Assembly: GCA_034231615.1 (NCBI GenBank)
Contig: CM067298.1
Location: 66,235,591-66,299,590, forward strand
Length of the DNA stretch: 64,000 nt
DNA from: Meghimatium bilineatum
Lineage: Eukaryota; Mollusca; Gastropoda; Stylommatophora; Philomycidae
Reading direction: 5' to 3'
In this document: positions 5,368 through 56,305 of the stretch, in pieces
Position numbering within the stretch: the first letter of the stretch is position 1
How the letters are laid out: every line of letters starts with the position of its first letter
Made by a program: the position numbers and the translations under genes
The notes under the pieces: model-generated
The model's database searches: none
What the model saw: only the letters and a program-made list of their open reading frames with translations
What the model was told of the DNA's origin: nothing

Positions 5368-5533
5368 TTATATAGGATGATCATCAGCAAAACATCCTGA
5401 TCTTGAGATCATATCAGCAAATTTTTTAAGCATATGGGCCTCTTCATATGAAAGAGTTTGATCCAGTATCACTCCCTTTTCATGCAGCTCACTTATGACT
5501 CGATGTATATAGTCTTGATCTGGATAGCCAAAA
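5368..5533 (-). CDS. Exon 7: end of the DTC domain and stop codon
   Basis: The acceptor TATATTTGCAG is followed in phase 2 by [20 protein letters not shown], the final motif of DTC domains (GYPDxxYxxRVxxEL...KG). About 30 further residues end at TAA (5370-5368). They form a short C-terminal extension beyond the usual Deltex end. Intron 6, which separates this exon from exon 6, is 13.4 kb. The match in phase, motif order and distance to a poly(A) signal makes this assignment secure although the segment is short. Confidence 0.92.

Positions 5534-56305: not shown

Follow-up and report, generated by a model that had tools for sequence, protein, structure and literature searches.

A stylommatophoran gene predicted to place a macrodomain and a Deltex RING-DTC module on one chain

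In mammals, the work of macrodomains and that of a Deltex ligase sit on two proteins, PARP9 and DTX3L. Does a single gene of the snail Meghimatium bilineatum combine both, and is it a fusion of those two proteins? The question was raised by a sequence-only reading of the window (the whole stretch of 64,000 nucleotides that was analysed, in whose positions all coordinates are given), which proposed one gene encoding a KH-like region, two macrodomains, a RING finger and a DTC domain, placing two kinds of ADP-ribose reader on one ubiquitin ligase, as a “Rosetta stone” for the mammalian PARP9/DTX3L complex. Judged from its sequence, the snail gene does combine both types of job. The explanation we favour, with a probability of roughly 0.65, is that it would encode a DTX3L-like Deltex E3 ligase with macrodomains in cis, which reads, tags or erases ADP-ribose. 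The likelihoods given in words for the alternatives overlap, are not mutually exclusive and do not sum to one.

A single spliced frame on the minus strand

A joined frame emerges from seven exons that span 51 kb of the minus strand; its joint sequences and phases were checked. All six junctions that had been proposed (56279/48225, 46407/37149, 36448/33498, 33295/27407, 27151/19165 and 18954/5533) proved to be GT-AG and phase-compatible, and the joined coding frame of 3,387 bases (1,128 amino acids) is open to a TAA at 5368. From 5′ to 3′, the introns measure 8,053, 9,257, 2,949, 5,887, 7,985 and 13,420 bp. Exon 1 (56279..56305) comprises nine codons from the proposed start ATG, with an in-frame TAA just upstream of it and a donor GT whose phase fits exon 2. 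Exon 2 (46407..48225) encodes amino acids 10-616: a conserved N-terminal stretch, a low-complexity linker, the KH-like part and the first two thirds of macrodomain 1 (MD1). Exon 3 (36448..37149) has AG and GT flanks and the matching phase. Splice phase, tblastn and blastp define exon 4 (33295..33498), with the end of the second macrodomain, and exon 5 (27151..27407), with the RING and the start of the DTC domain; splice phase, Pfam and alignment define exon 6 (18954..19165), with the middle of the DTC domain and His1065, and exon 7 (5368..5533), with the end of the DTC domain, Glu1089 and the stop codon. A candidate polyadenylation signal, AATAAA, lies on the same strand 51 nt past the stop (5312..5317), a weak assignment, since five such hexamers occur within 1.5 kb.

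When 30 homologous proteins were compared with the window by tblastn (E 1e-3), every match fell within these minus-strand exons, and the same search found no second copy of the family on either strand of the 64 kb. The ends of the matches agree with the exon edges: for the homologue P0002, from Bradybaena, residues 381-765 end at 46405 and residues 765-1019 start at 37150. Exon 1, with its 27 bases, had no tblastn match among the 30 homologues; it is supported because the blastp alignment of P0002 (MEEKPPLQSLLTHCKLT...) with the window protein begins at residue 1 of both. Taken together, the homologues account for every exon in the right order, with exon 1 covered by this single alignment. An additional exon may lie between exons 4 and 5, where the linker of P0002 is longer.

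Could two neighbouring genes, one for the macrodomain and one for the RING-DTC module, have been wrongly joined? The introns are up to 13.4 kb long, the joins are known here from genomic sequence alone, and two Bradybaena gene models, P0007 and P0014, have macrodomain 1 without a DTC domain; against this, the phases are perfect, the joined frame has no stop, and the same order of domains recurs in 66 gene models from several phyla, which are predictions and not all independent. A wrong join is therefore most improbable. By its sequence, the locus is one gene with a single spliced frame, and the proposal of a macrodomain and a RING-DTC module on one chain stands, with Pfam matches for Macro and DTC in an open frame.

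The window also holds repeats and mobile elements. Intron 3 contains, on the strand opposite the gene (33922-35715, plus strand), a 597-codon transposase frame with no internal stop (PF13843, 1.2e-90; zf-Tnp_2, 1.1e-5), which we take to be of the piggyBac type. LINE-like frames that match endonuclease, reverse transcriptase and RNase H lie in intron 6 on the strand of the host gene (12052-15505, minus strand), and a similar-looking LINE-like set is found upstream of the gene (about 58911-61347, plus strand). There is a fragment of a mariner-like transposase (29574-29915, minus strand; PF01359, 1.9e-7) near a run of N (30080-30179), and there are long intronic TA dinucleotide repeats at 11147-11270 and 37949-38000.

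Domains of the predicted protein

The Pfam Macro profile (PF01661) matches amino acids 509-626 of the window protein (8.4e-29). The N-terminal part of MD1, including loop 1, is encoded at 46407..46791 (minus strand), and the C-terminal part, assigned by Pfam, PDB match and alignment, at 36986..37149 (minus strand), with loop 2 (SSAIF) running across the exon 2/3 junction. The best PDB matches are the macrodomains of PARP14 and PARP9 for MD1, and DTX3L for the DTC domain. On sequence grounds, MD1 is an intact macrodomain of the PARP14/PARP9 type. The available text of PMC10221186 gives a sequence rule for hydrolase macrodomains, i.e., Asn and Gly in loop 1, and a hydrophobic followed by an aromatic residue in loop 2; the snail MD1 agrees with it, having Asn..Gly-Gly in loop 1 and Ile-Phe in loop 2. 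MD1 of both PARP14 and PARP9 hydrolyses Glu-linked ADP-ribose, according to the accessible part of PMC10499325. Loop 2 reads SSAIFT in the window versus SSGIFG in PARP14 MD1, and these replacements of Gly by Ala and Thr could weaken binding; most MD1 rows outside the heterobranchs retain the loop-2 Gly.

The change from Gly to Ala would also suit an ordinary lysine-directed E3, in which MD1 is a reader without hydrolysis that recruits ADP-ribosylated targets for ubiquitylation on lysine. PARP9 gives the DTX3L complex its reading of mono-ADP-ribose (PMC10955461, in the text available), which also favours this explanation, whereas the MD1 loops still satisfy the hydrolase rule (PMC10221186, same extract) and both DTC residues for ubiquitylation of ADP-ribose are present. 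We consider a purely lysine-directed enzyme, which partly overlaps the favoured reading, somewhat unlikely.

The first part of the second macrodomain is encoded at 36448..36814 (minus strand) and continues into exon 4; it was recognised by phmmer homology to residues 352-536 of the Elysia protein P0006 (6.7e-9), and no Pfam match for a second macrodomain was found in the window protein. A profile of nine heterobranch second macrodomains, compared by hhalign, had a match probability of 0.20% against MD1 of the same group, 0.47% against the last macrodomains of molluscs and 0.43% against PARP MD2/3, none of them significant; KH and DTC decoys gave 0.15% and 0.23%. The second macrodomains of bivalves can be recognised by sequence, whereas their snail counterpart cannot. 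Its presence in degenerate form is supported by predicted structures of homologues, the one source of that support: the AlphaFold2 model of P0006 (model residues 74-530) superposes on the PARP14 MD1-MD2 tandem. The description as two readers of ADP-ribose is thus too simple, since MD1 is of a hydrolase type (PMC10499325, as above) and is followed by a degenerate second macrodomain.

The KH-like region (amino acids 286-400; 47053..47397, minus strand) is related by phmmer to P0002 (2.8e-16) and P0007 (2.2e-15) among the collected proteins. These two resemble KH_PARP14_2 weakly, below the cut-off (E 0.043 and 0.022, respectively), and strands and helices alternate in the model of this region in P0007. 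The window piece had no Pfam match for a KH domain, and the window protein had none for KH_DTX3L (PF21718) or RRM_PARP14_1. A KH-like part of the window protein is weakly supported. Of the domains originally listed, Macro and DTC were thus recovered by Pfam; the second macrodomain and the KH region had no match, and the RING on its own fell below the PF13920 cut-off.

The DTC profile PF18102 matches amino acids 970-1095 with 133 bits (8.3e-39; cut-off 25). The available text of PMC7615817 identifies His582 and Glu608 of DTX2 as catalytic in the ubiquitylation of ADP-ribose, and that of PMC11460948 reports that DTX3L requires His707, Tyr719 and Glu733. The window protein has both catalytic residues: His1065 (corresponding to DTX2 His582 and DTX3L His707) and Glu1089 (corresponding to DTX2 Glu608). 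At the Tyr719/His594 site stands Phe1075, a residue that many DTX3Ls share at this place. A Bradybaena paralogue, P0001 (BsWGS_01971), has Ser in place of the catalytic His (ISHKT), so function may drift within the family.

Directly before the DTC domain lies a variant RING (27271..27384, minus strand; assigned by alignment, PF13920 8.6e-5) with C928, C931, C942/C943, C948, C951, C958 and C961. Eight Cys align, but the fourth ligand, usually His, is Gly945, and Cys942 is extra. Membership of the C3HC4 class was dropped, as the ligands are not Cys3-His-Cys4, while the proposal that the domain would work like such a RING was retained. Alone, the RING piece scores 22.7 bits with PF13920, versus a curated cut-off of 27. 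Among the 58 RINGs that could be aligned from the 61 tree rows, 46 combine the His with no extra Cys, the His is missing from 11, and one has both; a Cys stands directly before the third ligand in 11/11 RINGs without the His versus 1/47 with it. The His-less RINGs come from heterobranchs (seven rows), amphioxus (three rows) and the sponge Ephydatia: the His ligand is gone in all heterobranch rows tabulated (7/7) and kept in 47/51 rows outside this group. The Elysia P0006 RING, also His-less, passes PF13920 (35.9 bits; cut-off 27), and its model has pLDDT values of 83-91 in 10-residue blocks from 551 to 600. This pattern is suggestive of a ligand swap, from Cys-His to Cys-Cys, that would preserve the second zinc site and would have occurred at three places in the tree; it is graded as suggestive because there are just three changes on the tree, a number with which the independence (sign) test of the co-substitution has no power.

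If a RING without His can no longer sustain the transfer of ubiquitin, the protein would be a pseudo-ligase, acting as an ADP-ribose-binding scaffold or decoy. In keeping with this are the Gly at the His position and the loss of the His from every tabulated heterobranch row, the score below the Pfam cut-off, the absence of the DTC catalytic His from the paralogue P0001, and the long terminal branch of the window protein in the RING-DTC tree (1.33 versus a median of 0.39). However, Cys can fill all eight zinc-ligand places, and the extra Cys is present in each of the 11 His-less rows; the window protein retains its DTC catalytic residues; and the His-less Elysia RING is well modelled and passes the cut-off. 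A pseudo-ligase is unlikely, and a DTX3L-like ligase with macrodomains in cis is still the reading we prefer.

Spread and history of the one-chain architecture

The nearest relatives of the window protein are gene models of Bradybaena similaris on one contig (39-57% identity), followed by those of Physella, Bulinus, Lymnaea and Elysia; the RING-DTC tree pairs the window with P0001 (98/89). Four related Bradybaena models (BsWGS_01970, 01971, 01972 and 01974) lie on one contig, and P0007 and P0014, which have no DTC domain as modelled, are two of these four.

The matches listed in the protein searches provided 263 proteins, all of them gene predictions and many from the same or close species. 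By profile (more than 30 bits), 156 have a DTC domain, 173 a macrodomain and 66 both, the last count excluding the window protein and P0110; in 66/66 of these two-domain proteins the macrodomain is N-terminal of the DTC domain, the order seen in the snail. This collection partly favours macrodomain-bearing proteins because some of the queries contained macrodomains. A less biased search used only the RING-DTC stretch of a hemichordate protein as query, and a macrodomain was present in 34 of the best 120 of its 509 matches: by name, in 30/34 named non-vertebrate animals, 4/15 nameless rows and 0/71 named vertebrates. The named non-vertebrates without a macrodomain among the matches listed are Hyalella, Patiria, the amphioxus hybrid model P0179 and Montipora P0210.

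Macrodomain-DTC chains occur in a sponge, cnidarians, molluscs, echinoderms, hemichordates, amphioxus and a tunicate, with examples in the amphioxus “DTX3L” (P0019), Bradybaena BsWGS_01970 and BsWGS_01971, Physella, Elysia, oysters, Ciona, Nematostella and Ephydatia. Thus, the one-chain architecture holds but is not peculiar to this genome, being common in public invertebrate gene models, and because it occurs in the gene predictions of so many invertebrates it looks old and widespread. Three chains have two RING-DTC or DTC matches behind the macrodomain: P0151 (Dendronephthya), P0156 (Montipora) and P0157 (Haliotis). Precomputed Pfam matches show other partners of the DTC domain: ankyrin repeats (P0029), a TRIM-like B-box (P0179, P0210) and a B-box with a macrodomain (P0223). 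No description of a macrodomain-Deltex fusion was found in the available portions of PMC13224862, PMC7615817, PMC10955461, PMC12687431, PMC11080071, PMC8195618, PMC7955679, PMC10221186, PMC10450202, PMC4038475 and PMC11467253.

The RING-DTC tree has 61 rows: 58 hand-picked from the 156 DTC-bearing proteins, the window and two outgroup chains. With an outgroup of two human PDB chain segments and Hyalella, and with vertebrate DTX3 and DTX4 unsampled, all 42 macrodomain-bearing rows and vertebrate DTX3L fall on one branch (100/97), apart from DTX1/DTX2 and the Hyalella protein. Vertebrate DTX3L is placed among the fusions, yet a clade of all macrodomain-bearing rows is compatible with the data in a 53-row tree (AU p 0.32), from which the macrodomain-less Patiria, Acropora, TRIM-type and ankyrin-type rows and the macrodomain-bearing Mya, Saccostrea echinata, Haliotis and Dendronephthya rows (long, short or with two DTCs) were dropped. 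As this clade is not rejected, it is not established that vertebrate DTX3L lies nested within the fusions. With the DTC columns of all 61 rows, a set that held the macrodomain-less Patiria, Acropora, TRIM-type and ankyrin-type rows, the clade is rejected (p 4e-77).

The macrodomain tree comprises 55 macrodomains from 34 proteins, including the window. Long branches prompted warnings for this tree and its root is weak (75/88); its row “bact2” (P0110) is coloured as a fusion owing to a match with the RING-DTC profile, although in a stricter count it is not a macrodomain-DTC fusion. Window MD1 lies within the mollusc fusion macrodomains (90/89), outside the PARP9/PARP14 MD1 group (91/83), with moderate support. 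The macrodomains of cnidarian fusions (4 rows) join PARP14 MD2/3 rather than MD1 (83/89), which favours more than one fusion. Going by these sequences, two or more fusion events are possible, and it is plausible that the fusion arose once and was lost in vertebrates.

These trees bear on the “Rosetta stone” in its literal sense, PARP9 joined to DTX3L. Such a fusion would agree with the best PDB matches, to PARP14/PARP9 for MD1 and DTX3L for the DTC domain, and with the match of homologue models to the PARP14 tandem. However, a search of the whole window protein to E = 1 gave no ART domain (PF00644), so that the gene is not a literal fusion; the macrodomain tree places MD1 elsewhere, with the moderate support given above; and PARP9 is reported from jawed vertebrates only, whereas PARP14 is reported from cnidarians, molluscs and vertebrates (PMC10221186, in the text available). 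PARP9 is also reported to be missing from lamprey. The literal fusion was rejected and has next to no likelihood.

As the one-chain form spans several phyla, the division between two proteins in vertebrates may be the derived state. We tentatively entertain, as possible rather than probable, a history in which the one-chain eraser and ligase is the old animal DTX3L and the pair of jawed vertebrates its split successor: DTX3L would have lost its macrodomain, a PARP14 duplicate, PARP9, would have taken over in trans, and the RING would have been re-plumbed from Cys-His to Cys-Cys in several lineages, including heterobranch snails.

Predicted function and comparison with known systems

The family papers describe a DTC domain that binds ADP-ribose and that, with the RING and an E2, allows ubiquitin to be esterified to the 3′-hydroxyl of ADP-ribose, and type-1 macrodomains that bind Glu-linked ADP-ribose and hydrolyse it. 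In the snail protein, MD1 would dock on a mono-ADP-ribosylated protein or nucleic acid and, to judge from its loop residues, would probably hydrolyse ADP-ribose linked to acidic residues; both activities may be performed on one target. Binding or hydrolysis by MD1 together with tagging by the DTC domain would enable one chain to read, tag or erase ADP-ribose, as PARP9/DTX3L do in trans. By analogy, the setting is probably antiviral or stress signalling: vertebrate DTX3L, PARP9 and PARP14 are linked to interferon (available text of PMC12687431), and an Aplysia transcript named DTX3L, which may or may not encode macrodomains, lies within a module of antiviral-type genes (accessible part of PMC8195618). 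The protein would be a natural stoichiometric version, with both activities on one chain, for probing what the PARP9 macrodomains add to an ADP-ribose-binding ligase. In animals with the one-chain form, it could be asked whether hydrolysis by the macrodomain and ubiquitylation by the DTC domain compete for the same ADP-ribose.

At the level of domains, i.e., a macrodomain and a RING-DTC module in one chain, the parallel with PARP9/DTX3L that had been drawn is upheld. The snail protein and the sampled fusions group with DTX3L in RING-DTC trees, not with DTX1/DTX2, and the snail protein has the DTC catalytic His and Glu and, like human DTX3L, a Gln after the last RING Cys. Vertebrate DTX3L differs in having no macrodomain (none in the 71 named vertebrates among the matches listed), the human protein has RRM, alpha/beta and KH_DTX3L domains, and the snail RING is without the His ligand. 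The macro-RING-DTC models of other invertebrates share the one-chain order but differ in that the RING His and the loop-2 Gly of MD1 are mostly present outside the heterobranchs. The resemblance to PARP14 lies in MD1, for which PARP14 is the best PDB match, and in homologues of the snail protein, which have models that match both PARP14 macrodomains and weak similarity to KH_PARP14_2. To our knowledge, PARP14 has no RING-DTC module. It differs further in its three macrodomains and its PARP (ART) domain (PMC10221186, available text). PARP9 has tandem macrodomains, of which the first is hydrolase-type, and is the partner of DTX3L (PMC10499325 and PMC10955461, in the text available); the snail protein resembles it in its MD1 and would do so in the tandem, given the second macrodomain predicted from homologues. 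PARP9, in contrast, carries an ART domain, an inactive one, and is encoded by a separate gene, reported only from jawed vertebrates in that same text of PMC10221186.
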